Shown here piece after piece: positions 17,341 to 59,953 of a stretch of DNA of 64,000 nt. The notes beneath the pieces were generated by a model, which was not told where the DNA came from, did not search any database, and was given only the letters and a program-made list of their open reading frames with translations. How positions within the stretch are numbered: position 1 is the first letter of the stretch; each line of letters starts with the position of its first letter. This DNA is from Lichenifustis flavocetrariae (lineage in GTDB: Bacteria; Pseudomonadota; Alphaproteobacteria; Rhizobiales; Beijerinckiaceae): assembly GCF_026130545.1 (NCBI RefSeq), contig NZ_JAMOIM010000012.1, positions 62,001 to 126,000 on the forward strand. The letters are read 5' to 3'. A program made the position numbers and the translations under genes.

Positions 17341-18387
17341 ATGAGCGTCGTCCACGGCATCGCCGCAAAAGACCCGGCACGTCTCAGGCCCCGGGTCATG
17401 ATCTATGGCGTCGGGTACTACGGTATGGAGGCTGTGCGTATTCTCGTAAAAAAGGGCTGGCCGATCGTTGCGGCGGTGAACCGGGCGGGTCCCAAGATCG
17501 GTGAGGATTTGGGGCGGCTCGCCGGGCTGAACGAAGACTTGGGCGTCGTCGTGCAGGACTGTGAAACCGCCGACTACGCGACCTTGGATGCGGATATCGC
17601 GCTGGTTGTGCAAACCGAGAGGCTGAGCCACAACTTCGCCGCCTATCAACGCCTCTTGGGAGCCGGCATCAATGTCATCTGCCACGGCTCCGAGTCCTAT
17701 TTTCCGCAGGGCGCCGATCCCGACTTGGCCGAAAAGATCGATGCCTTGGCCAAGCGGAACGCTGTGACATTCACCGGGACCGGCATTTGGGATTTCTCTC
17801 GCATCTGGGCGGGACTGCTGATCGCGGGGCCGTGCACCGAGCTTCGCTCGCTCACGCATCGCAGCTTGACCAACGCAGAGCTGGCGAACGAGCGCATGAT
17901 GCGCGCCTATGGCGTTGACATGACGCAAGCCGAGTTCTTGGAAAAGGTCACCAAGGTGCCGGGCAAATTAGGAGAACTGTACAAAGGCATACCGGCGCAC
18001 GTGATGCATGCGCTTGGATTTACCATTAAAAACGTGACCGAGTTGCGCGAGCCGGTCCTGTCCGATCAACCGATGTGGTGTCGTACCCTCAATCGGTTTT
18101 TGGAGCCCGGCACCTCGCTCGGTCTTCGGATCGTCGCGTCGGTCGAAACCGTCGAAGGGCCTACGGCAAGCGCGCACATCGAACTGCGTCTCCTGGCGGA
18201 AGGCGAGTCCGAAAACATGACGTGGGCCGTTGATGGAAGGCCACCCTCCAAAATCCGGATCGACCGCGCCGATGGCGTACACGCCTCGGCAGCCTGCATG
18301 GTGAACCGCATTCCAGACGTCATAGCTGCTCCGCCGGGGATAAGGTTGATCTCTCAGCTTGGTCCACTGCGACCGTCACTGACGTAA
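17341..18387 (+). CDS. DapB-like NAD(P)-dependent oxidoreductase (2,4-diaminopentanoate dehydrogenase family)
   Basis: A 348-residue protein with an N-terminal Rossmann fold (VMIYGVGYYGMEAVRIL, GxGxxG), then a C-terminal domain as in dihydrodipicolinate reductase-like amine dehydrogenases. Supporting stretches: NVICHGSESYFPQG, FTGTGIWDFSRIWAGLLIAG and AGVHASAACMVNRIP-like ending (DGVHASAACMVNRIPDVIAA), which is usual for this family. It is monocistronic between a DMT transporter and ffh, with no substrate-defining neighbour, so only the family can be named. Its codon use is slightly less GC-rich than ffh. Confidence 0.75.
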   Translation: MSVVHGIAAKDPARLRPRVMIYGVGYYGMEAVRILVKKGWPIVAAVNRAGPKIGEDLGRLAGLNEDLGVVVQDCETADYATLDADIALVVQTERLSHNFAAYQRLLGAGINVICHGSESYFPQGADPDLAEKIDALAKRNAVTFTGTGIWDFSRIWAGLLIAGPCTELRSLTHRSLTNAELANERMMRAYGVDMTQAEFLEKVTKVPGKLGELYKGIPAHVMHALGFTIKNVTELREPVLSDQPMWCRTLNRFLEPGTSLGLRIVASVETVEGPTASAHIELRLLAEGESENMTWAVDGRPPSKIRIDRADGVHASAACMVNRIPDVIAAPPGIRLISQLGPLRPSLT

Positions 18388-18541
18388 ACGCCTTCGCGGA
18401 TTTCACACTGAACCATCACCCGGACATGCACGCATTTGACGCCGTCGCGTTTCCATTCTACGAAGTCCCGGACTTTATCCACCAAAGTCAAACACGCTGA
18501 CCAGCCCCCGAGGCTGGAGGCGAACGTCCGACAGCGCTGAG

Positions 18542-18560
18542 GCGCCCTCGGGCGCGTTTT
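18542..18560 (+). terminator. Candidate terminator upstream of ffh
   Basis: A perfect GCGCCC/GGGCGC hairpin with almost no spare loop is followed by GTTTT. It lies about 155 bases after the DapB-like gene and 54 bases before ffh, so it could end the former or attenuate the latter. The short T-run keeps this tentative. Confidence 0.4.
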
Positions 18561-18613
18561 GCTTTGGCTCTATCTCTCACCCGAGGGTCTCGGCCCGTGA
18601 CTAAGGACCACCC

Positions 18614-20173
<1,560 letters not shown>

Positions 20174-48106: not shown

Positions 48107-50488
48107 ATGAGACGGGTTTTATCGATTAGCTCTATTCTTTTGATTAGCCTGTTCGTAGCCGGCTGTAACAATGCTGGCCAAGATGTTGCCGAAACTCTTG
48201 CTCGTGCCCACCAGTATGTGGTCGAAGGGAATATCGCCAAGGCTCGGGTGGAGCTACAAAACGCCCTCAAGGCAAACCCGACAGATCCGCAGGTCAACCT
48301 GACTCTGGCACGTCTCGAGGATGAAGCAGGCAATCTTCAGGCGGCCGTACCTTTCTATTTGAGGGCCGCTGCTCCCGACGCTCATCTCATTGAACCTCAG
48401 CTGCGAGTCGCTGAGATCCTTCTCGACTCTGATCGACTGCAAGACGCAGCCGGACGCATCAATGCGACAGTTGGTTCTTTTCCCGGGAACGCAAGTGCCT
48501 TGGCGATGCGCGCCGACCTCGCGGAACGTCAAGGACAACTTGGACCTGCAAAGACCGATGCTGATGCGGCACTTCAGAAAGACCCTATCAACTCGCGTGC
48601 GCTCGCGGTCCTGGCTATGCTGGACCTGCGCAACCATGATGCTGAGCAAGCCCTGAACCTAGTCAATCGCGGCTTGGCGAAAGCTCCCAATGACCTCCGT
48701 TTGCTGCAAGTTCAAGCGGCCGCACTGCTCACATCGAACCAGCCCGAGAAAGCGGTCGATGCTCTCAGATCTATCGTGCGTGCCGCTCCAGGTAATATTG
48801 CTGTCCAGACCGCAATCGCCAATCTCGAAGCCAGCAACGGCAAGCTCGATGATGCAATTGCTCACTTTAAGGCCGCCGTGGATGCGAGCCCCGCAAACGT
48901 AGACTTGCAGCTTGCTTTCATCAAATTTCTGGCGAGCACAAGCAAAAGCAATGATGCCGCGTCTTACATCGATAAGCTCATCACGCTGTACCCGGATACC
49001 TCCACCTACGATCTTGCGCTAGCCGGTTATTATCGCAGCAAGGGAGCGCTTGAGCAGAGCAAGGCCACGCTTGTTCAGGCTGAAGCGAGGTTGCCAGATG
49101 GAAAGTCGAAGCGAGAGGTCGAAGTGGCTTTGGCGAAAGTCGAGGCGGACAGCGGCCATTACGATTTGGCGGAAGCAAAGCTGAACTCCGTCCTGAGCCT
49201 CGACCCGCAAAACACTGAGGCGCTCCTGTTTCGCGCCGACTTAAGTGCGAGGTTTGGACGAACCACAAATGCCATCGCCGATCTGACGGCAGTCGTGCGC
49301 AACGATCCCGTGAATGGGCGTGCATTCCAGGCACTTGCCACGGCGTACCTCCGACAAGGCGATGCAAAGCTTGCTGTGGATGCAATCCGCCGGGCTGTTG
49401 CCGTCGTACCCGGCGATGAGAATGCGCAGGCAACCTTGGCGGCTTTTCTGGAGAATGCTGCCGACCAGGAAGGCGCGCGCGACCTGATGGCACGGGTTAC
49501 TCTTCGGAGACCAGACAGCCCCTTCGTCTGGATTGTGAATGCCCAGATCGCAATCGACCGTAAGGATTGGGGTGAAGCTGCCAGATCTTTAAACCGGTTA
49601 CGTGAAATCCCTGGGTCGTCTTTTGCGGCTACGCTGATCGACGGTCAGATGCGTGCAGCGCGAGGCGACAACTCTGGTGCTGCTCTAGTCTACCGTAATG
49701 CAATCGGGGCGCAGATAGACTTTGATCCTTCACTTTTGGGGGCCTTCGCGCGCGCAAGCACAGCAGCCGGTGAGAGCGGCGACGCGGCGCAATTTCTTGC
49801 TCAGCGCACACCGGCTCTTAAGAGAGAGATCCAGCCACAAGCTTGGATCACCGCCATGTCACTGCAGGCGAGTGCAGGACATGTCGACAAGGCAGACGAA
49901 GCCTTTGCAAATGCTGTGCGCCTGTCTCCTCAGACAGCCGACTTCTATTCTGCTTACGTCGGGGTTCTTCTGGGCAAGAACCAATACGATCAGGCGAGAC
50001 GGGTGATCACGTCGGGACTCGCCGCAGGTGCTTCGCGATCTGCACTTCTGGTGCTCAGGGGCTGGATTGACGAATCTGCAGGAGACGCCAAGGCGGCGCA
50101 GGCAAGCTATAAAGAAGCGCTGGACGCCAATCCATTATCAATAGATGCAGCAAACAATTACGGGAGTCTGGTGGCGGATCGTCAATCCACCAACATCGAG
50201 GTATTGGCTGATGCACGTGCACGACTGAGTGGATCTGAAGCTATAAACAATCCATCGATCGTCGATACCATCGCATGGCTTGATTATCGCCTGGGTCGTT
50301 TCGAGGAGGCTCGGCTGTTGTTGACGCGGATCAACGCTCGTGAAAGCAAAACGCCTCAAATTCGCTTTCATCTCGCAGCGGTCCTTCTCGCGTTGGGAGA
50401 CCGGTCAACTGGATTGGCTCTTCTTGACTCTCTGAAAGGGCTGACGTTTCCAGGGTCCGAAGAGGCGCGTTCACTTTCGGCTACCTGA
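48107..50488 (+). CDS. TPR-repeat lipoprotein, PrsT-like (PEP-CTERM/exosortase system)
   Basis: A 793-residue protein with a lipoprotein signal ending LFVAGC (Cys about 20) and then tandem tetratricopeptide repeats along nearly the whole length, e.g. GNIAKARVELQNALKANPTD, NAQIAIDRKDWGEAARSLNR, QALATAYLRQGDAKLAVDAI, YGSLV at the end. Lipidated, long TPR proteins of this size beside PEP-CTERM genes match the PrsT family, which helps route exopolysaccharide/PEP-CTERM products. The ATG at 48107 begins the signal. GC content is lower than the flanks (27 of 60 in 48901-48960 by hand count). Confidence 0.85.
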   Translation: MRRVLSISSILLISLFVAGCNNAGQDVAETLARAHQYVVEGNIAKARVELQNALKANPTDPQVNLTLARLEDEAGNLQAAVPFYLRAAAPDAHLIEPQLRVAEILLDSDRLQDAAGRINATVGSFPGNASALAMRADLAERQGQLGPAKTDADAALQKDPINSRALAVLAMLDLRNHDAEQALNLVNRGLAKAPNDLRLLQVQAAALLTSNQPEKAVDALRSIVRAAPGNIAVQTAIANLEASNGKLDDAIAHFKAAVDASPANVDLQLAFIKFLASTSKSNDAASYIDKLITLYPDTSTYDLALAGYYRSKGALEQSKATLVQAEARLPDGKSKREVEVALAKVEADSGHYDLAEAKLNSVLSLDPQNTEALLFRADLSARFGRTTNAIADLTAVVRNDPVNGRAFQALATAYLRQGDAKLAVDAIRRAVAVVPGDENAQATLAAFLENAADQEGARDLMARVTLRRPDSPFVWIVNAQIAIDRKDWGEAARSLNRLREIPGSSFAATLIDGQMRAARGDNSGAALVYRNAIGAQIDFDPSLLGAFARASTAAGESGDAAQFLAQRTPALKREIQPQAWITAMSLQASAGHVDKADEAFANAVRLSPQTADFYSAYVGVLLGKNQYDQARRVITSGLAAGASRSALLVLRGWIDESAGDAKAAQASYKEALDANPLSIDAANNYGSLVADRQSTNIEVLADARARLSGSEAINNPSIVDTIAWLDYRLGRFEEARLLLTRINARESKTPQIRFHLAAVLLALGDRSTGLALLDSLKGLTFPGSEEARSLSAT

Positions 50489-50489
50489 C

Positions 50490-51404
50490 GTGGCGGATGG
50501 AAACACCCTCGGAGCAATCGACAGAGTAGGTGATGCGGCGTCGCAAGATGCACCCGCAATATCGGTCATCATCCCGCACTATGACGATCTCCTGAACCTC
50601 GGTGTCTGCCTCGCGGCATTGCGCAGCCAGACGATGGCACCGGACCGGTTCGAGGTGATTGTCGCCGACAACAATTCACGCTGCGACCGCTCGCAGCTTG
50701 AGGCCGTGTGCCGTGACGTTCACCTCATCAATGCGCCCATTCAGGGTGCTGCGGAGGCGCGCAACGCGGGCGTGCGGGCTGCCAAGGCGCCGCGTCTCGC
50801 CTTCCTCGATTCGGACTGCCGTCCTGATCCCGCGTGGCTAGCGGCCGGCTTGGCGGCGCTCGACCACCATGCGCTAGTGGGTGGACGGGTCGACGTCTCC
50901 GTAGCGAACCGCGAGGCCGTGACGCCAGCCGAGGCCTTCGAACAGGTCTTCGCGTTCAACAACGAGCGCTACATCCGTGAGGAGAAGTTCTCGGTTACGG
51001 CCAATCTTTTCACCACACGGGCCGTGTTCGAGGATGTCGGCGGCTTTCGCACCGGCGTCGCCGAGGATTACGACTGGGGCCGCCGCGCTGCCGCGAAAGG
51101 GTATGTTTGGCATTACGCGGCCGATGCCGTGGTCGAACATCCGGCGCGCCGCGACTGGCAGGAGTTGACCCGCAAATGGAAGCGGCTGACGTCCGAAGGC
51201 TTCGCGCTGGCGGCGGAAGCCAAAGGCGGCCGTCGGCGCTGGATTATCCGCAGCTGGCTCATGCTGTTGTCGCTGCCCCTCGCGGCCCTTCAGGCCGCCC
51301 GAAGCCCGAGGGTCGCTCAGCCGCAGGATCGCTGGAAAGCGCTGGCGGTCCTTATTCGCTTACGCTGGTGGCGCTTCATCGAGGCGCATCGCGTCGCCTT
51401 CTGA
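50490..51404 (+). CDS. Glycosyltransferase family 2
   Basis: A 304-residue GT-A fold enzyme: SVIIPHYDDLLNLGVCLAAL, then AEARNAGVRAAKAPRLAFLD with the metal-binding DSD (LAFLDSDCRPDPAWLAAGL), and GVAEDYDWGRRAAAKG as the acceptor-region ED motif. GTG start at 50490 immediately after the TPR gene stop, so probably one transcript. Ends with a hydrophobic/basic tail. Likely extends a surface glycan; substrate unknown. Confidence 0.9.
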   Translation: MADGNTLGAIDRVGDAASQDAPAISVIIPHYDDLLNLGVCLAALRSQTMAPDRFEVIVADNNSRCDRSQLEAVCRDVHLINAPIQGAAEARNAGVRAAKAPRLAFLDSDCRPDPAWLAAGLAALDHHALVGGRVDVSVANREAVTPAEAFEQVFAFNNERYIREEKFSVTANLFTTRAVFEDVGGFRTGVAEDYDWGRRAAAKGYVWHYAADAVVEHPARRDWQELTRKWKRLTSEGFALAAEAKGGRRRWIIRSWLMLLSLPLAALQAARSPRVAQPQDRWKALAVLIRLRWWRFIEAHRVAF

Positions 51405-51587
51405 TCGGCACCGGGTTCGGCTTTGTTCCACGGCGACTGCAAGTCCAAAAAGTGGGGCTGATTTTATGCATTTTGCTGTATAGTTGTGCTTCCGAGGATG
51501 TCGACCGGCAGCACAAATGCCGACGACATCGTGAACAACGCCGCATCTTTCGTTTTTGACAATAGCTTCCGCTACGTTACATAACAC

Positions 51588-52850
51588 GTGAAGCGGGTGT
51601 CCGATCGAGAGGTAGCATTGCGATCTTGCGTCATCATCGTCGAAAACCTGCCGGTTCCACTTGACCGGCGTGTGTGGCAGGAGGCCAAAGCTCTCCGAAC
51701 CGCGGGCTGGAAGGTCTCGGTGATCTGCCCGGCGACGGAGAAGTACCCCGCCCGGTTCGAGCGGATCGACGACATCAGCATCTACCGGCATCCGCTCTAT
51801 ATGGAAGCCGACGGATGGAAAGGCTTTCTGGCCGAATATAGCTCGGCACTCTTCCATGAATTCCGGCTGCTCATCAAAGTCTGGCGGCATGAAGGCTTCG
51901 ACGTCATCCAGGCCTGCAACCCGCCCGATCTGATCTTCCTTGTGGCGCTGCCGTTCAAGCTGCTCGGCAAACGCTTCGTATTCGATCATCACGATGTCGC
52001 GCCCGAGCTGTTCGTGGCCAAATTCAACCGCAAGGGGCCGCTCCATGCGGTTCTTCGCCTGATGGAATGGCTGACCTTCAAATCGGCCGATCTCGTCATT
52101 TCGGCGAATGGCACGTTTCGCGATATCGCGATCACGCGTGGCGGCAAGAAGCCCGACGATGTGGTGGCGGTCTACGGTGTGCCGGATCGGAGCCATATAA
52201 GACGGGTCGAGCCCGATCCCGCGGTGCGAAACGGCCGCTCCATCGTCATCGGCTATATCGGCATCATCGGCGAGCAGGATGGGGTCGACCACATGGTCAA
52301 GGCTCTGCACCTCCTCAAGACGACCTACGGCCAGACGGATTTCCAGGGATTGATCATCGGCGACGGGCCGGCGCTGCCGCGCGTCAAGACGCTGGCCGAC
52401 GAACTGGGCATTGCCGAGTCGATCACCTTCACGGGCTATCTCTCTGGAGAGAGCCTGCTGCGGCATCTCAGTGCCATCGAGATCGGCATCATCCCGGATC
52501 CTGTCAATCCTTACAATGACAAGATCTCGATGAACAAAGTCTTCGAGTATAGTGCGCTCGGCATTCCGAGCGTCGGTTACCCATTGACGGAAACCCAACG
52601 TCTCCTCAAGGACGGGGCGGTGTTCGCCGACAGCCCGGAGCCCGATGGGCTCGCGCGCGCATGCCTGGGCCTGATGGTCGACGCGGACAAACGGGACCGG
52701 GTCGGCCGGGCCGCGAAGAAGATCTCAGATTCGAGCTTCAACTGGGGGCGTGAAGTCTCGAAATATCTCGGCGTCTACGATCGCCTCGTTCCCCCGACCC
52801 TGGCCCTGAGCGGCGCCCCGGCGTCCGGAGACCGGCCGGCCGGCGGGTGA
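51588..52850 (+). CDS. Glycosyltransferase family 4 (group 1)
   Basis: A 420-residue GT-B enzyme. N-terminal VIIVENLPVPLDRRVWQEAK and VSVICPATEKYPARFERIDD; donor-binding C-terminal ADLVISANGTFRDIAITRGG, GYIGIIGEQDGVDHMVKALH and EIGIIPDPVNPYNDKISMNK with FEYSALGIPSVGYPLTET (E-x7-E). Length fits. GTG start at 51588 after a ~180-base gap, so an own promoter is possible. With the GT2 it suggests glycan assembly next to the PEP-CTERM/PrsT genes. Confidence 0.9.
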   Translation: MKRVSDREVALRSCVIIVENLPVPLDRRVWQEAKALRTAGWKVSVICPATEKYPARFERIDDISIYRHPLYMEADGWKGFLAEYSSALFHEFRLLIKVWRHEGFDVIQACNPPDLIFLVALPFKLLGKRFVFDHHDVAPELFVAKFNRKGPLHAVLRLMEWLTFKSADLVISANGTFRDIAITRGGKKPDDVVAVYGVPDRSHIRRVEPDPAVRNGRSIVIGYIGIIGEQDGVDHMVKALHLLKTTYGQTDFQGLIIGDGPALPRVKTLADELGIAESITFTGYLSGESLLRHLSAIEIGIIPDPVNPYNDKISMNKVFEYSALGIPSVGYPLTETQRLLKDGAVFADSPEPDGLARACLGLMVDADKRDRVGRAAKKISDSSFNWGREVSKYLGVYDRLVPPTLALSGAPASGDRPAGG

Positions 52851-52970: not shown

Positions 52971-53543
52971 TCACCCGTCCGTCCCCCGCGTATTCCGCAT
53001 CACCTTGTGCAGCGTCGCCACGAACCCCCGGAACTCCGCCTCGTCCACGCCGGCGAAGAACCGCGCATAGAGCCCGTAGATGTCGGGCCAGATCGTTGAG
53101 AAGAGCGTCAGGCCCTTTTCCGTGATGAAGACCTCGCGCACCCGCATGTCATCGGCCTTGGGGCGGCGGCGGATGAGGTCCTGGTCTTCAAGCGCGTCGA
53201 GCGTGCGGCTCATGGTGGATTGCTCGGTCACGGCGAAGACGGCGAGTTCGTTGACCGTGATGCCGGACGCGACGGTCAGCACCGCCAGCGCCCGGAACTT
53301 CGTCGTGCTGAGGCCGAGGTCGCGCAACAGGTCCTGCAACTCCGCGTTCCATTGCGCCGACAGGCGGTTGAGCAGGTAGGGCGCGAAGTGGTTGAGGCCG
53401 ATCTCGCCGATGGCCGGGATGGCTTGTCCACCTTCGCTCAGTCCGATCGCGGAGCGCGGTGGCCGCTCGGGCGTCCGTGGAGGCCGGATCTCCCGCGAGG
53501 GCGGAGTCGTCGAGAGTTTGGGCTCGGGCGGCGTCCGGCTCAC
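52971..53543 (-). CDS. MarR-family transcriptional regulator
   Basis: A 190-residue regulator with an N-terminal Pro-rich extension (about 1-45) and a winged-helix core: GLSTTKFRALAVLTVASGIT, VNELAVFAVTEQSTMSRTLD (recognition helix), then ALEDQDLIRRRPKADDMRVR and the wing EVFITEKG. The GTG at 53543 overlaps the stop of the upstream FAD oxidoreductase gene (GTGA), so the two are translationally coupled; it probably controls the divergent oxidoreductase pair. The ligand is unknown. Confidence 0.9.
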   Translation of the reverse strand: MSRTPPEPKLSTTPPSREIRPPRTPERPPRSAIGLSEGGQAIPAIGEIGLNHFAPYLLNRLSAQWNAELQDLLRDLGLSTTKFRALAVLTVASGITVNELAVFAVTEQSTMSRTLDALEDQDLIRRRPKADDMRVREVFITEKGLTLFSTIWPDIYGLYARFFAGVDEAEFRGFVATLHKVMRNTRGTDG

Positions 53544-55120
53544 GGCAACGACTTCGCAAGCAGGTAGCCCGAACCGCCGCCGAGGCCGGGGCCCGGATGG
53601 GTGGCGGCGCCGATGTGGTAGAGTCTTGGCACCGGTGTGCGGTGGTTCACCGTCCCCTTGAAGGGACGCCACAGGAAGAACTGGTCGAGGCCGCAGTAGC
53701 CGCCATAGGGATCGCCCCCGACGAGATTGACGTTGAGGGTTTCGAGATCGGCCGGCGAATAGGCGCGGCGGCCCAGGATGCTCTCCTTGAAGCCGTCGAT
53801 GTGGCGCGCGAGAACGGCCTCGACCCGATCCGCATAGGCCTCGCGGATGGCCCCGGTCCAGCGGCCGTCCGCCGGCGGCGCGATCTCGCCGGCCGCATCG
53901 CCCTTGATCTCGCGCGGGGCTTCCGGCAATTGCAGCCAGAGTACGGCTTTGCCCTCGGGGGCGCGTGACGGATCGAGCGCGGTGGGCTGGCCGACGCAGA
54001 TCGTGGGCACGGCCGGCAGAATGCCGCGCTCGGCCTCGTTGGCGGCTTTCGAGACGCCGTCGAGCCCCGGTGTCAGATGCAGAAGCGCCACCTTGTCGAG
54101 CCCTTCGCCCCGCCATCGTGGCGGGTGCGCGAGGGCATAGTGGATCTGCATGTTGCCCTTGCCGTAGCGGTAGCGGCCGAGGCCCTCGGTGATCTCGACG
54201 GGCAGGTCGGCGCCTGCAAGCAATCCGCGATAGAGCCGCTCGGGCGACATCGAGCAGATGACGCCCTGGCGGGCAGCGAAACTTCGCCCGTCGCCGAGCG
54301 TAACGCCGCTCGCCTGGCCCTTCGTGTCCCGGTCGACCCGCACGACATCTGCGCCGGTCGTGATCACCCCGCCCTTGTCGCGGATCAGCCGCCCGAAAGC
54401 GTCGAGCAGGTTTTGCGCGCCGCCCTTGACGATGGGTGCCCCCGCGGCTTCGAGCGCGAAGCCGATCACCTTGATCATCTCGCCCGAATAGGCGCTCTCC
54501 GGCCCGAGGCCCGTGTGCAGCACCCATGGGGCGAAGAGGTCGCGCACGAGCGGCGACTTGTAGCGGCCTTCGAGATGGGCACGGGCCGACACGAGTGCTT
54601 CCCCCAGAAAGGCCGCGAAGCCGCGCGGCCCGCGCCGCCAGAGTTCCTTTGCGACTGTCTGCAGCATGGCGCGCGACCAGAGCTGGCCGCCCAGCACCGA
54701 GAAGACGAGGCCCGCATTGGTCCCGAAGGCGGCCATTTCGCGCTCGAACGCCGCGCCGTCGCCAGTCGCCGACTGTTCGAAGGCGGCCCGGTTGGCGTCG
54801 CGCGACCGGCTCAGCACGAGGTGGCGGCCGTCCGGCCGCAACACGCCGGTCGGGACCTCGGCATGCGCGAAGGCCAGACCCCGCCGTTCAAGTTCCGGCG
54901 CCAGGGCCGCATAGGCCGGCGAGGTGATGAAGAGCACGAAGGTCGTGGCCATCACGTCATGGATGAAGCCGGGCGCCGTGATGGCCTCGGTGCGAATGCA
55001 GCCGCCGATGCGGTCGTTGCGTTCGAGCACCATCACCTTGCGGCCCTTGAGGGCCAGCAGCGCGGCGCAGACGAGGCCGTTGATGCCGCTTCCCACGACG
55101 ATGTAATCGACCTCGGCCAT
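53540..55120 (-). CDS. Phytoene-desaturase-like FAD oxidoreductase (PYROXD2-like), copy A
   Basis: A 526-residue flavoprotein. FAD fold DYIVVGSGINGLVCAALLAL and the ERNDRIGGCIRTE segment, then a mid-region with VICSMSPERLYRGLL and the C-terminal FAD closure LYHIGAATHPGPGLGGGSGY. Together with FLWRPFKGTVNHRTP and PTALDPSRAPEGKAVLWLQL the pattern matches CrtI/PYROXD2-type oxidoreductases rather than carotenoid desaturases proper. ATG at 55120 chosen, since MAEVDYIVVGSGING is the natural N-terminus. Divergent from a paralogue (55414) and coupled to a MarR gene. Substrate unknown. Confidence 0.9.
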   Translation of the reverse strand: MAEVDYIVVGSGINGLVCAALLALKGRKVMVLERNDRIGGCIRTEAITAPGFIHDVMATTFVLFITSPAYAALAPELERRGLAFAHAEVPTGVLRPDGRHLVLSRSRDANRAAFEQSATGDGAAFEREMAAFGTNAGLVFSVLGGQLWSRAMLQTVAKELWRRGPRGFAAFLGEALVSARAHLEGRYKSPLVRDLFAPWVLHTGLGPESAYSGEMIKVIGFALEAAGAPIVKGGAQNLLDAFGRLIRDKGGVITTGADVVRVDRDTKGQASGVTLGDGRSFAARQGVICSMSPERLYRGLLAGADLPVEITEGLGRYRYGKGNMQIHYALAHPPRWRGEGLDKVALLHLTPGLDGVSKAANEAERGILPAVPTICVGQPTALDPSRAPEGKAVLWLQLPEAPREIKGDAAGEIAPPADGRWTGAIREAYADRVEAVLARHIDGFKESILGRRAYSPADLETLNVNLVGGDPYGGYCGLDQFFLWRPFKGTVNHRTPVPRLYHIGAATHPGPGLGGGSGYLLAKSLP

Positions 55121-55352
55121 GGCGCCCCTCACGATGGCAGGCATCGTAGAAGAGGCCTATGACAATGCAAGTTTTCGCGCGGCTGCGGGGAAGTCTCGCG
55201 ACCTACGCGTGTCATCGCCGCGTTTGATGCGGTCATCTCGGCTACGGTGGTGGCATTCAAGACCAATTTGGCCCAGCTGTCCCTTTGGGTGCTGGCTCCT
55301 GGCCGGGCATAGTGCCGCGAATGAAAGATTGGACCGCATACCCGGCAGGGCC

Positions 55353-55371
55353 GCATGGACAAACTCCATGC
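55353..55371. promoter_or_regulatory. Inverted repeat, candidate operator of the FAD oxidoreductase pair
   Basis: GCATGG and CCATGC lie as 6-base arms across seven bases, about 42 bases before the start of the rightward gene and in the ~290-base interval between the two divergent genes. Size and position suit a MarR dimer site; no second copy was found. Confidence 0.4.
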
Positions 55372-55413
55372 ATATGAGACTATCTTGGCCCAGCGCGAAG
55401 AAGGAGGCGCACG

Positions 55414-56982
55414 ATGACCTATGACGCGATCGTCATCGGGGCCGGCCATAATGGGCTCGCGGCCGCCGTGCATCTCGCCACCAGGGGTTGGAAGGTGGCC
55501 GTGTTCGAAGCCGCGAAGCAACCCGGCGGCGCGATCAAGACCGCCGAAGTGACGCGGCCCGGCTTCCGCCACGATCTCTACGCCATGAACCTGAGCCTGT
55601 TCGCTGGCTCGCCTTTCTTCGCGTCCCACAAGGAGGGCCTGCTGCGCCATGGGCTTGCCTTCGTGCCCGCGCCCGACAGTTTCGCGACCGCCTTTCCGGA
55701 TGGCACCTGGCTCGGGGTCAGCCAGGATCTGGAGACCACGGCGTCGCGCATCGCGGCGCTGTCACAGAAGGATGCCACCGCGTGGCGGGCCATGGCGGCG
55801 GGTTTCGCGGCCGACGCTCCGCACATTTTCGCCGTGCTCGGTTCGCCGATGCCGTCGCGCCGGGCGATGCAGGCCGTGTGGGGCGCATTCCGGGCGAAGG
55901 GCATGGCAGGCTTGGGCGAATTGGCGCGCCTGCTGGTCGCCTCGCCGCGCGATTTCCTGGACCGTCATTTCGAGAGCCCCAAGCTGAAAGCCATGATGGC
56001 CATGTGGGGGCTGCATCTCGACTTTCCGCCCGACGCGGCCGGCGGCGCCCTCTTCCCTTATCTCGAATCCATGGCCTGTCAGAGTTTCGGGATGGTCATC
56101 GGCCACGGCGGCGCCGACACGATCGTCAAGGCTCTGACGGGCTATCTTCGGGAGCGGGGCGGCGAGGTGCATCTCGAGGCGCCCATCGTCGAGATCCTCC
56201 GTACTGGCAAAGCCGCGACCGGCGTGCGTCTGGCGGATGGCCGCACCGTGACGGCGCGCCGGGCCGTGATCGCCAACGTGCATCCGGGACGCGTGTTCGG
56301 GCAGCTGTTGCCCGGGACCGATCACGCGGCCTACCGGACCAAGCTCGACGGCTTCAAGCCGGGGCCGGCCACGATGATGATCCACTATGCGCTGAGCCGC
56401 TTGCCGGAATGGGCTGCGGGCGGGGCTCTGAAGCGTTTCGCCTACGTGCATCTCGCGCCGGATTTCGCCGCGATGACCCGCGTCTACGATCAGGCCAAGG
56501 CCGGTCTCCTGCCGGAGGCACCGGGGCTCGTCGTTGGACAGCCGACCGCGCTCGATCCGAGCCGCGCGCCCGAGGGGCAGCATGTGCTCTGGGTCCAGGT
56601 CCGCGTCCTGCCCGCGACGATCTTGGGAGATGCCGCCGGCGAGATCGAGGACACGGATTGGGGACTCGTGAAAGACCGCTATGCGGATCGGGTCGAGGCC
56701 TTGATCGAGCGCTATGCGCCGGGATTTCGGACCACCGTGCGGGGCCGGGCGGTCCTGAGCCCGGCCGATCTCGAGCGCGACAACCCGAATCTCGTGGGTG
56801 GCGACAGCCTGTCGGGGAGCCACCACCTCGACCAGAATTTCATGTTTCGCCCGGTCTTCGGCTGGTCACGCTACAAGACGCCGGTCGAAAAGCTCTTTCT
56901 GGTCGGCGCCTCCACATGGCCTGGAGCGGGTGTCGGCGCCGGGTCGGGCTTCATCCTGGCCAAGATGCTGGCGGGCCGTTGA
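55414..56982 (+). CDS. Phytoene-desaturase-like FAD oxidoreductase (PYROXD2-like), copy B
   Basis: A 522-residue paralogue of the leftward gene. FAD fold AIVIGAGHNGLAAAVHLATR, EAAKQPGGAIKTAE, PGFRHDLYAMNLSLFAGSPF, an internal GMVIGHGGADTIVKALTGYL, the shared PTALDPSRAPEGQHVLWVQV and a C-terminal LFLVGASTWPGAGVGAGSGF. The two share several exact short stretches (TALDPSRAPEG; the GDAAGEI segment), so they arose by duplication. AGGAGG lies before the ATG at 55414. Partner or substrate unknown. Confidence 0.92.
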   Translation: MTYDAIVIGAGHNGLAAAVHLATRGWKVAVFEAAKQPGGAIKTAEVTRPGFRHDLYAMNLSLFAGSPFFASHKEGLLRHGLAFVPAPDSFATAFPDGTWLGVSQDLETTASRIAALSQKDATAWRAMAAGFAADAPHIFAVLGSPMPSRRAMQAVWGAFRAKGMAGLGELARLLVASPRDFLDRHFESPKLKAMMAMWGLHLDFPPDAAGGALFPYLESMACQSFGMVIGHGGADTIVKALTGYLRERGGEVHLEAPIVEILRTGKAATGVRLADGRTVTARRAVIANVHPGRVFGQLLPGTDHAAYRTKLDGFKPGPATMMIHYALSRLPEWAAGGALKRFAYVHLAPDFAAMTRVYDQAKAGLLPEAPGLVVGQPTALDPSRAPEGQHVLWVQVRVLPATILGDAAGEIEDTDWGLVKDRYADRVEALIERYAPGFRTTVRGRAVLSPADLERDNPNLVGGDSLSGSHHLDQNFMFRPVFGWSRYKTPVEKLFLVGASTWPGAGVGAGSGFILAKMLAGR

Positions 56983-57474: not shown

Positions 57475-58608
57475 TCAGCGCGACTGGTGCAGCAGGTCCA
57501 GATAATCGTCGCGGGTCGCGAGGCGTGGATTGGTGGCGTGGCAATGGTCCTTGAGGGCCTCGCCGGCCACCTGATCCATCATGGCGGCCGTGACCCCCAT
57601 GGCGTCGAGGCCGGGCGGCAGGCCGATGGCGGCCGACAGGGCGGCGACCTGCTGGTCGGGCACGCCGCCGAGGATGTCAGCCAACACGTCCCATTTGACC
57701 CCGATGGCGGCGCGGTTGAAGCGCAGGACGGCCGGCATCAGGACGGCGTTCAGCGTGCCATGATGGAGGTTCAACTCGCGCACCGCACCGAGCGGATGCG
57801 TCAGCGCGTGTACGGCGCCGAGACCCTTCTGGAACGCCATCGCGCCTTCGAGCGCGCACATCATCATGTCCCAGCGCGCCTGCCGGTCCGCCCCCTCGGC
57901 GACGGCGTCCCGGATCGCGCCCCAGCCGCGTTTGAGGCCGTCGATCGCGATGGCGTCGGCGGGCGGGTTGACGGCCGATGCCATGAAGGTTTCGAGACAA
58001 TGCGACAGCGCGTCCATGCCGGTCGCGGCCGTCAGGAAGGGTGGCAGGCCATGGGTCAGCTCCGGATCGCAGAGCGCGACACTCGGCAGCATATGGGGGC
58101 TGATGATCCCGAGCTTGCGGCCCTCGCGGGTGATGATCACGGCGGCGCGCCCGACCTCCGACCCCGTGCCCGACGTGGTCGGCACCGCGATCAGCGGACA
58201 AATGTCGCCATGGATCCGGCCCACGCCTCCGGCCACCGCCGTATATTGCGCCAACGGCCCCGGATGGCCGCTGAGCAGCCGCACCGCCTTGGCCAAATCG
58301 ATCGACGAGCCGCCGCCGAGCGCCACGATCCCGTCGCAACCCGCGTCACGGTAGAGCGCGTAGGCCGCATCGACCGCCTCTTCGGTGGGATTGGCGGGCG
58401 TGTCGGCATAGATCGTGGGTCGCTGGGGCAGCAGCGCCGCGACCCGGTCGACGAGCCCGGTCTGCATCAGCCCGCGATCGGTCACCAGCAGCGGGCGCGC
58501 CACCTTCAGGCCGTCGAGGAGGGACGGCAGCTTGGCGATCGCGCCATCGTCGAATTCGATGCGGGTCAGATAGGTGATGAGGGCCATGGCGGCAGGTTCC
58601 ATGTTCAT
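57475..58608 (-). CDS. Iron-containing (type III) alcohol dehydrogenase
   Basis: A 377-residue NAD(P)-linked dehydrogenase. Coenzyme-binding GGGSSIDLAKAVRLLSG, PTTSGTGSEVGRAAVI, and metal ligands in VALCDPELTHG (Asp), MDALSHCLETF (His) and GAVHALTHPLGA (two His). I choose the ATG at 58608 (AAGGTG about 8 bases upstream), giving the family length; the open frame reaches 58719. Alcohol or hydroxyacid substrate unknown. Stands alone. Confidence 0.92.
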   Translation of the reverse strand: MNMEPAAMALITYLTRIEFDDGAIAKLPSLLDGLKVARPLLVTDRGLMQTGLVDRVAALLPQRPTIYADTPANPTEEAVDAAYALYRDAGCDGIVALGGGSSIDLAKAVRLLSGHPGPLAQYTAVAGGVGRIHGDICPLIAVPTTSGTGSEVGRAAVIITREGRKLGIISPHMLPSVALCDPELTHGLPPFLTAATGMDALSHCLETFMASAVNPPADAIAIDGLKRGWGAIRDAVAEGADRQARWDMMMCALEGAMAFQKGLGAVHALTHPLGAVRELNLHHGTLNAVLMPAVLRFNRAAIGVKWDVLADILGGVPDQQVAALSAAIGLPPGLDAMGVTAAMMDQVAGEALKDHCHATNPRLATRDDYLDLLHQSR

Positions 58609-58951
58609 TGGCCCGCACCTTCGTTCGTGCGGGAGGGCAAGACCGAACCGGTCGCGTGCCTTCACCTTGCTACGAATGTTGGCTGTCGGCGTCAAATCAG
58701 GCCGGAAACGGATTATCACTTCGAATTAGCAGAGCGAAAAATCTGAACCATCATAAATAGAGACCCGTAGTATCACTCGGCGTAGTCGATTTGCAGCGGT
58801 GCTTTGAATATGCAACCGTACAAAGGCGCCAGTCCTGTCCTACAGTACAACCGCGCAGATCCGTTTGAAACTCCTATCGTCATGGAAAAGAACTTGCGCA
58901 GAAAACGCATCATGTTGAAGTGATTAGCTTTGAGCGTTCAGACGGATCTGC
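58609..58951. other. 343-base gap between alcohol dehydrogenase and orphan membrane gene
   Basis: I see no gene. The stretch is visibly richer in A+T than the flanks and holds the promoter of the leftward alcohol dehydrogenase. It marks the edge of the AT-richer segment that continues through the next gene. Confidence 0.5.
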
Positions 58952-59953
58952 TCAGTCGGCCAAGAAGCTGCCAAAGAAATCCAGCCGCATCAGTCCAACC
59001 AATCCGGCTGGGAACTCAGTTGGGGCGAGCCCCACTGCGGTCGGGGTCAAGATTCTGTAAGCAAACCGCGTCTGATGCCTACCCAACTGATCAGAGGGGA
59101 AATGGTAGGTCACGCATCCAAGCAGCAATGGATCGACTCTTGGAAAATCTTTGAAGAGGTTTCTTTCCATCTCTGCCCTGGTTGCCGTAATAGAAAAACC
59201 ATATTCGGTTACGTGTCCGGTCAGTTCTTCCGCCGGAAAAAGAGTTAGTTCGAGGAAATTGCTTCGTTTGATCCTAAGCTCTTCAAACCGTGCCTTGACT
59301 CTGGCTTCTTCAAAGCCGCCCGGATGAAAGAAGTCGATCCAGATATCTACGGTTATTTGCAAAGCTGGAGTGATGCCAATGTTTTTAATAGGCAGTCGAG
59401 CAGTCGCCCAGATTTGTTGTTCGGTGATTTGGAACACGTTGTCTAGCACAGGGCGTCCAACAGTCAGCCATGCTCGATTGTTGGCAATGAGGCTTTCACG
59501 CGCGAGCTTGGCTTGCTCTTTGGCAGCATCGGCAGCTTGCTTGGTATCATACAGGCCATTGCGCATTAGAACGAGTTGCCGAATAAAGAACAAGGCTTGC
59601 AGAGAGCCGACGCCAATAAGTCCAAGCGTGTAGAAGCCTGCTGAATCGCCGGTGATCGTCCAATGCCACCACCGGTATATCGGGCCTTTGCCCTCCTGTT
59701 CGGCGTCGGCACTGGTATGCTGGCGCCCTATTTGATCAGTTGATTTGCTGTCGGGCGGCACCCAAAGCGCGAATGCGAAGGCTAGAGCGACAATCACCAT
59801 CCCAAAGACGGAGCCGCGCTGATAATCGGAAATGTCTTTCACGCGGAAGTCTCTGCTTATTCTAAGATCCTCCAGTCGTATCTCTTCCATCCCCAGAACC
59901 GCTAGGAGTGGCCGCCAAAAAATCCGTGCGTACGCTCCTCGTTTAAATTTCAT
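58952..59953 (-). CDS. Two-TM hypothetical protein, 333 aa
   Basis: No recognised family. Two N-terminal hydrophobic helices (VFGMVIVALAFAFALWVP about 48-66, and FYTLGLIGVGSLQALFFIR about 105-125), then an Ala/Lys-rich helical segment (TKQAADAAKEQAKLARESLI) and a soluble beta-rich domain. This layout, a two-TM anchor with a coiled-coil stalk, is common in uncharacterised proteobacterial membrane proteins. The gene has clearly lower GC than the neighbours (28 of 60 in 59161-59220 by hand count), suggesting recent acquisition. Confidence 0.75.
   Translation of the reverse strand: MKFKRGAYARIFWRPLLAVLGMEEIRLEDLRISRDFRVKDISDYQRGSVFGMVIVALAFAFALWVPPDSKSTDQIGRQHTSADAEQEGKGPIYRWWHWTITGDSAGFYTLGLIGVGSLQALFFIRQLVLMRNGLYDTKQAADAAKEQAKLARESLIANNRAWLTVGRPVLDNVFQITEQQIWATARLPIKNIGITPALQITVDIWIDFFHPGGFEEARVKARFEELRIKRSNFLELTLFPAEELTGHVTEYGFSITATRAEMERNLFKDFPRVDPLLLGCVTYHFPSDQLGRHQTRFAYRILTPTAVGLAPTEFPAGLVGLMRLDFFGSFLAD

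Follow-up and report, generated by a model that had tools for sequence, protein, structure and literature searches.

A divergent flavoprotein pair with an overlapping MarR gene in Lichenifustis flavocetrariae, a possible core of an isatin-forming catabolic regulon

A stretch of 64,000 nucleotides from Lichenifustis flavocetrariae (assembly GCF_026130545.1, contig NZ_JAMOIM010000012.1, here C31, positions 62001-126000; the window below) encodes two paralogous flavin adenine dinucleotide (FAD) oxidoreductases, A and B, transcribed away from each other, and a MarR-family regulator whose gene overlaps the end of A. We put at about one half the probability that these three genes stand at the center of a regulon that breaks down indole-derived compounds by way of isatin, in which A and B oxidize C3 of a substrate of the oxindole or dioxindole type. 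It is the gene company that carries this reading. Judged by sequence similarity, the genes for A, B, and the MarR form one recurrent set with those for isatin hydrolase, an Opp/Dpp-type importer, and a 2-oxoacid oxidoreductase like IorA/IorB; on these grounds membership of A and B in isatin metabolism is well supported, and the set as a whole probably oxidizes an indole-derived compound to isatin and passes it towards anthranilate.

The locus is laid out as follows, in window coordinates:
52971-53543, minus strand: MarR-family regulator, 190 amino acids (aa), GTG start; Pfam MarR and MarR_2, above cut-off
53540-53543, minus strand: GTGA overlap of 4 bases between the A stop and the MarR start, read from the sequence
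53540-55120, minus strand: FAD oxidoreductase A, 526 aa; Pfam NAD_binding_8 and Amino_oxidase, above cut-off
55121-55413: gap between the divergent genes A and B (A|B gap), 293 bases
55401-55407, plus strand: Shine-Dalgarno-like AAGGAGG ahead of B, read from the sequence
55414-56982, plus strand: FAD oxidoreductase B, 522 aa; Pfam NAD_binding_8 and Amino_oxidase, above cut-off

The divergent flavoprotein pair and the overlapping MarR gene described in the initial annotation are thus present, with A and B about 40% identical (39% and 40% in two comparisons). The GTG at 53543 reads as the sole in-frame start codon of the MarR gene ahead of amino acid 69, and A has an alternative ATG start at 55144. 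The 4-base overlap, which the open reading frame coordinates also give for A and MarR in loci L013-L015, may couple translation of the MarR gene to that of A. Compared with PDB sequences, the MarR protein scores 124 bits with 3cjn, 83 with 7kym, 74 with 3e6m, 45 with 7kua, 45 with 7kfo, and 41 with 7krh.

Conservation of the pair was followed in 397 genomes of the order, the window's own included, using A as query with E up to 1e-75 and scoring no more than three candidates per genome. A is present in 34 of these genomes and B adjoins it in 32, divergently in 30 and in tandem in two (G466, G604); in G706, A runs into a contig end. A sample of 385 genomes of the class, again with the own genome, has A in four, each with B beside it. 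Among the 33 loci fetched around A, the own genome left out, a MarR match lies directly downstream of A on the same strand in 32, so that the three-gene arrangement whose conservation the initial annotation had proposed to check is conserved, and the pair is not scattered in relatives. Relatives found with B as query have MarR-A|B in several proteobacterial records, including Cypionkella psychrotolerans and metagenome-assembled genomes; among the genomes of L008-L018, nine carry A and every one of these also carries B, with 24 kb between the two genes in G006, a count biased by the B query that found the genomes. Five other genomes of the window's genus yield only distant B matches (best E 7e-20) and A was not found in any of the 19 other same-family genomes listed, which suggests lateral gain.

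B is present in 31 of the 33 loci fetched around A (divergent in 29), isatin hydrolase sits between A and B in 30, IorA or IorB occurs in 29, and SBP5 in 25. Of the 397 genomes, 49 carry isatin hydrolase (E up to 1e-60) and 70 carry IorA (E up to 1e-120); each of the two genes coincides with A in 33 of the 34 A genomes, with Fisher p values, shared ancestry ignored, of 6e-35 for isatin hydrolase and 2e-27 for IorA. All 49 isatin-hydrolase genomes have IorA, including 16 that lack A, and this suggests a general isatinate oxidoreductase role for the IorA-like gene. Once plasmid records are added, 54 stretches contain A; isatin hydrolase was found in 50 of them and IorA or IorB in 44. The neighborhood tables record only genes that resemble chosen reference sequences, and they include overlapping stretches and stretches truncated at a contig end.

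In proteobacterial relatives MarR-A|B is flanked by genes for proteins of ∼715 aa and ∼508 aa on one side and by an SBP_bac_5/Opp transporter on the other. The first two were initially taken for hydantoinases, a reading dropped when a family scan gave an IorA-like protein with a thiamine pyrophosphate (TPP) domain and an IorB-like protein with DUF6537. Annotated plasmid neighbors (two further plasmid records have no annotation) include a 'cyclase family protein', indole monooxygenase, flavin reductase, short-chain dehydrogenase (SDR), RidA, and a 'bifunctional salicylyl-CoA 5-hydroxylase'. For the 'cyclase' of Sulfitobacter the match is isatin hydrolase B (4j0n, E 4e-163), and for the Azospirillum monooxygenase it is 7z4x (E 3e-183). 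In L052 the N-terminal half of the PRK08255-type protein has VioD as its match and the C-terminal half has old-yellow-type flavoproteins, the pattern expected of a 2-aminobenzoyl-CoA monooxygenase/reductase; genes of this type occur in 12 of the 67 stretches searched. L052 belongs to Alloyangia pacifica T6124, in which B lies in two pieces (17785-19316) with no annotated gene, in the same stretch as an indole monooxygenase operon. In Azospirillum thermophilum (L047) an A that is 70% identical follows genes for SDR, indole monooxygenase, flavin reductase, and a transporter.

A palindromic expectation-maximization motif search was run on the divergent gaps, with 44 gaps cut to 32 non-redundant ones by shared 6-mers and the window included. 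It returned an 18-bp palindrome, roughly TATaTGCATtTGCAaaTA, with a positive-scoring best site in 31 of the 32 gaps; best-site scores run from 6.8 in the window to 18.4, with L010 negative. The total score is 264, compared to 30-33 in four mononucleotide shuffles per width, albeit with 10 restarts for these controls versus 40 for the real set, and with kinship among the sequences raising the real score. A test matrix was built from 30 of these sites, leaving out the window and L010. Divergent IorA|SBP5 gaps shorter than 900 bases, present in 7 of the 67 stretches, were new to this matrix; six of the seven hold the highest-scoring site of their 19-20 kb stretch and the seventh holds the runner-up. 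In the window's contig the top site of the symmetric matrix is at contig position 142700, 78 bp before IorA. The sites and the repeat in the A|B gap are, in window coordinates:
55156-55173, plus strand: operator-like site CCTATGACAATGCAAGTT, 35 bp before the ATG of A; 9.7 bits and ninth in the contig's two-strand list (directional matrix), symmetric rank 5; weak alone
55353-55371: inverted repeat GCATGGACAAACTCCATGC upstream of B, with 8-base arms that differ at one position, found by scanning the gap for palindromes
55365-55382, plus strand: operator-like site TCCATGCATATGAGACTA, ∼40 bp upstream of B; 12.2 bits and third in the two-strand list, symmetric rank 8

One of five shuffled contigs held a position above the score of TCCATGCATATGAGACTA (one strand), and judged from the contig by itself the two window sites would not attract notice. 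Control of both arms, A|B and IorA, by one regulator is therefore well supported in the relatives and only suggested in the window, whose sites are weak; this regulator may be the MarR itself. The candidate MarR operator that had been noted in the gap accordingly holds at the level of the family and is weak in the window's own copies.

The remaining parts of the module lie on the same contig, outside the trio (contig positions):
138767-140308: IorB
140466-142631: IorA
146793-151948: Opp-type substrate-binding protein, two permeases, and two ATPases
158058-168998: 2-aminobenzoyl-CoA-type cluster with thioesterase, SDR, a second MarR, ECH, ACAD, FadJ-like, TDO-like, RidA, and PRK08255-type genes
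176208-176990: isatin hydrolase, 54% identical to the Sulfitobacter enzyme

The PRK08255-type protein scores 997 bits against a cut-off of 1078. A short A|B gap with isatin hydrolase elsewhere, as in the window, is also found in L160. Literature statements here and below are drawn from excerpts of PMC11061730, PMC4109377, PMC12538310, PMC12633357, PMC9613470, PMC6221969, PMC10374108, and PMC6117287. The isatin hydrolase carries EHTGTHFDAPVHW, the spacing of which fits His69, His73, Asp75, His79, and Trp80 of LaIHA (PMC6117287, excerpt). It stands in a run (contig 172621-178265) with an aldolase, a class I aminotransferase, and an amino-acid ABC pair. The enzyme belongs to a second isatin-hydrolase subgroup, which recurs (70–71% identity) with an HpcH/HpaI-type aldolase in L178, L179, L186, L187, and L188, accompanied by the aminotransferase in L178, L179, and L188 and by the amino-acid ABC pair in L178 and L179; sets of the aldolase/aminotransferase type are likewise near A in L156 and L170. 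Isatin hydrolases 55–63% like that of the window's genome stand with Rieske genes in L183, L190, L195, and L197, as expected of iad loci. A 193 aa protein (contig 152015-152596) without NCBIfam match recurs beside the module in 16 of the 67 stretches; one homologue is in L048, a stretch with an annotated VOC-family gene adjacent to its Opp genes.

A number of observations weigh against an isatin-forming regulon built around A and B. The window genome's isatin hydrolase belongs to another subgroup and another operon, 59 kb from A, and indole monooxygenase has no match in this genome with a query that does match L047, L052, and L140/L175. Sixteen of the 49 isatin-hydrolase genomes lack A; conversely, isatin hydrolase was not found in four of the 54 A stretches (L048, L049, L051, L173), nor IorA/IorB in ten, some of these stretches being cut by contig ends. 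In Azospirillum thermophilum the gene that A precedes encodes a homologue of 48% identity, a putative isatin hydrolase. The pair itself is incomplete in places, with A but no B at 1e-75 among the three scored candidates in G602, and B without A in G007 and, among other neighbors, at the plasmid loci L054 and L055. In Sulfitobacter indolifex, A and B adjoin proline-racemase genes, and isatin hydrolase, MarR, and IorAB are all missing from the locus. The directional matrix puts its top contig site at 121188, near no module gene, and ranks the site at 142700 second. Finally, neither A nor B reaches the curated cut-off of 1000 bits for CrtO (NF045689), their best NCBIfam match, to which A scores 170 bits and B 206.

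For both proteins the next NCBIfam match is crtI_fam. The AlphaFold model of A has a mean pLDDT of 89.9, and that of B 85.9, with residues 467-485 and 499-506 below 50; the top PDB fold match of each is the gamma-carotenoid desaturase 4rep, with TM scores of 0.79/0.84 for A and 0.78/0.83 for B. The fold and the invariant N-terminal FAD-binding glycines place A and B in the phytoene-desaturase (crtI) fold family, so that the PYROXD2-like label of the initial annotation suits them at the level of the family. When A and B are aligned most conserved positions are common to both, conserved flavin-motif positions included, and 14 positions differ, each conserved within its own paralogue; no complementary active-site losses of the kind envisaged in the initial annotation are seen. 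In the tree the A clade has support of 0.995 and the B clade without L017 a weak 0.25; L017 (Symbiobacterium) groups on the side of A and was not counted as B. The distances of A and B co-vary over 45 loci (r 0.84, 0 of 2000 permutations), to which shared species history contributes. B-like proteins 44–48% identical are encoded on haloarchaeal plasmids (L059 and H56-H59; Salinirubellus, Halococcus, Halocatena), and B is in unrelated company on a haloarchaeal plasmid. Among abstract openings of the openly licensed PMC literature, we recognized no paper that assigns A or B.

CrtO converts a ring CH2 into a ketone (C=O). We propose that A and B act likewise on C3 of the oxindole or dioxindole ring, as CrtO-type ketolases do on an allylic CH2, because isatin hydrolase usually lies in the gap between them, because of the Azospirillum context, and because CrtO is the best named match. 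In this scheme B would hydroxylate an oxindole-type substrate, its CH2 becoming CHOH with water as the oxygen source, and isatin would then arise as A dehydrogenates the dioxindole-type alcohol. Separate jobs for A and B are probable, since no B was detected in G602 to go with its A (which has isatin hydrolase, aldolase, and aminotransferase beside it) and B occurs without A in G007, and B is the better candidate for the entry step because it often adjoins the importer; the way the step is split between the two is the least certain part of the proposal. Isatin hydrolase would then open isatin to isatinate, an aryl 2-oxoacid, and IorAB would decarboxylate this oxidatively to 2-aminobenzoyl-CoA, which would enter the PRK08255-type route. 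That isatinate is a 2-oxoacid, and that isatin hydrolase always comes with IorA (49/49), suggests this conversion for the IorAB-like enzyme. The MarR would keep both arms repressed as long as no indolic ligand is bound.

The literature excerpts report isatin and dioxindole as intermediates of bacterial indole and auxin breakdown, but those of PMC12538310, PMC12633357, PMC9613470, and PMC6221969 name no enzyme that converts dioxindole into isatin or isatinate into a CoA thioester. The unassigned oxidation step that the initial annotation attributed to the pair is supported. With a conserved gene set that has a recurrent operator and that several Rhodobacterales carry on plasmids, both steps become open to direct test, the C3 oxidation through the two flavoproteins and the isatinate step through the IorAB-like enzyme; if the proposal is true, proteins labeled 'NAD(P)/FAD-dependent oxidoreductase' or carotenoid desaturase move into indole catabolism.

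It is conceivable, though doubtful, that A and B are the subunits of one obligate heterodimeric flavoenzyme, like limonene dehydrogenase CtmAB or the delta-24 sterol desaturase, that performs a single oxidation in the isatin pathway. Their adjacency in 32 of 34 genomes and their co-varying distances would fit such an enzyme, and CtmAB and the sterol desaturase are described in the excerpts as heterodimers of two such flavoproteins. The genomes with one partner only (G602 and G007) and the conserved flavin-motif positions kept by both A and B argue against it. The absence of the covalent-flavin histidine is a further point against it. The consensus flavinylation motif of CtmAB type is given, in excerpt, as G-F-L/R-X-N/S-T/L-H-A; the window has GFIHDVMA in A and GFRHDLYA in B, and the histidine is absent in every row matched by the pattern (51 of 53 for A and 54 of 55 for B), its place being taken by M/L/F/Y in A and A/G/Y/F/C in B. 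An assignment of the regulon to degradation of auxin or a catabolite of it (indole-3-acetic acid, 2-oxindole-3-acetate), with A and B desaturating or oxidizing the side chain in an iad-type branch, appears unlikely. It draws on the match of the window's MarR to 7kym, 7kua, 7kfo, and 7krh, which we take to be auxin-type MarRs, on B adjoining an acyl-CoA ligase, a class used in the iad route, in L008, and on the iad loci themselves, in which iorA/iorB homologues occur with a MarR and a route through isatin (PMC9613470, excerpt). Against this, a single Rieske reference, not a true IadDE, had its sole tblastn match among the 67 stretches in L051, from which it was taken and whose A is 46% identical, and Rieske matches go with the other isatin-hydrolase subgroup (L183, L190, L195, L197).

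Oxidized tryptophan (oxindolylalanine or dioxindolylalanine, free or in peptides) is a substrate that we likewise consider improbable. A and B would oxidize the oxindole, an aminotransferase would yield the 2-oxoacid, and an HpcH/HpaI-type aldolase would release pyruvate and isatin. The run with aldolase, class I aminotransferase, and amino-acid ABC pair around the window genome's isatin hydrolase is consistent with this, as are similar sets close to A in L156 and L170, and others that adjoin the Opp genes at the A/B loci of L178 and L179, although the aldolase homologue is found in only 5 of the 67 stretches searched, some overlapping, and in the window's genome the run is >50 kb from A. Transaminated dioxindolylalanine would, by chemical reasoning, be the aldol adduct of isatin and pyruvate, and such an aldolase could cleave it. 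Because of this chemistry and the recurrence of the second isatin-hydrolase subgroup with the aldolase, a route can be drawn, with the same low probability, from Opp and amino-acid ABC import through C3 oxidation without O2 by the flavoprotein pair and aminotransferase/aldolase cleavage to isatin and pyruvate, followed by isatin hydrolase and the IorAB-like enzyme to 2-aminobenzoyl-CoA. Terpene or lipid oxidation, the substrate class first suggested, is very unlikely and we have rejected it on gene company. A and B do share the fold family of carotenoid desaturases and, as far as the literature excerpts describe it, resemble limonene dehydrogenase in architecture. Apart from A and B themselves, however, the annotated plasmid stretches have no terpene or carotenoid annotation among the neighbors, and the recurrent partners are instead isatin hydrolase and IorA/IorB, partly with 2-aminobenzoyl-CoA-type or indole monooxygenase genes.

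Several other genes flank the trio in the window. An Fe-type alcohol dehydrogenase gene (57475-58719, minus strand), above the NCBIfam cut-off for 4-hydroxybutyrate dehydrogenase, adjoins B, and a 333 aa reading frame (58952-59953, minus strand) has no Pfam match at 0.01. On the other side, positions 48107-52850 encode a PrsT-like TPR protein and two glycosyltransferases, one MftF-like and one like XrtA-system enzymes, all scoring under the NCBIfam cut-offs of the PrsT/MftF/XrtA-type families.

Set beside known systems, the preferred reading of A and B as flavoenzymes of an isatin pathway touches four. The CrtO/phytoene-desaturase family (crtI_fam, 4rep, 4dgk) supplies the best NCBIfam and PDB fold matches for both proteins, whose scores are far under the CrtO cut-off. 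CtmAB and the delta-24 sterol desaturase are, according to the excerpts, also two paralogous flavoproteins in a catabolic context that cooperate on an activated C-H, and A and B are similarly encoded together; they are not placed with CtmAB, since by the published motif the flavinylation histidine is absent, and the gene company also differs. The iad auxin-degradation locus of Variovorax and Bradyrhizobium shares IorA/IorB homologues, a MarR, and an isatin route to anthranilate (PMC9613470, excerpt), features that recur at the A loci (IorA or IorB in 29 of 33, MarR in 32 of 33). The iadC-K2 region starts with a Rieske enzyme (PMC12633357, excerpt), whereas the canonical A/B module has no match to the single Rieske reference beside A and B, and A and B are not named in the iad descriptions excerpted from PMC12633357 and PMC9613470; a 2025 preprint, also in excerpt, places IadI downstream of C8H7NO2, so that the place of isatin in iad is unsettled. 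The iif indole operon differs from the window's genome in its indole monooxygenase. Its SDR, indole monooxygenase, and flavin reductase genes adjoin A in L047 and L052, and in L140/L175 they border the module. In the iif pathway these upper enzymes produce 3-hydroxyindolin-2-one, from which IifA makes anthranilate (PMC6221969 and PMC12538310, excerpts). In Azospirillum thermophilum, A and the isatin-hydrolase homologue stand where IifA would be expected, with no gene there annotated as such an oxygenase, and A with isatin hydrolase could replace IifA by way of isatin.

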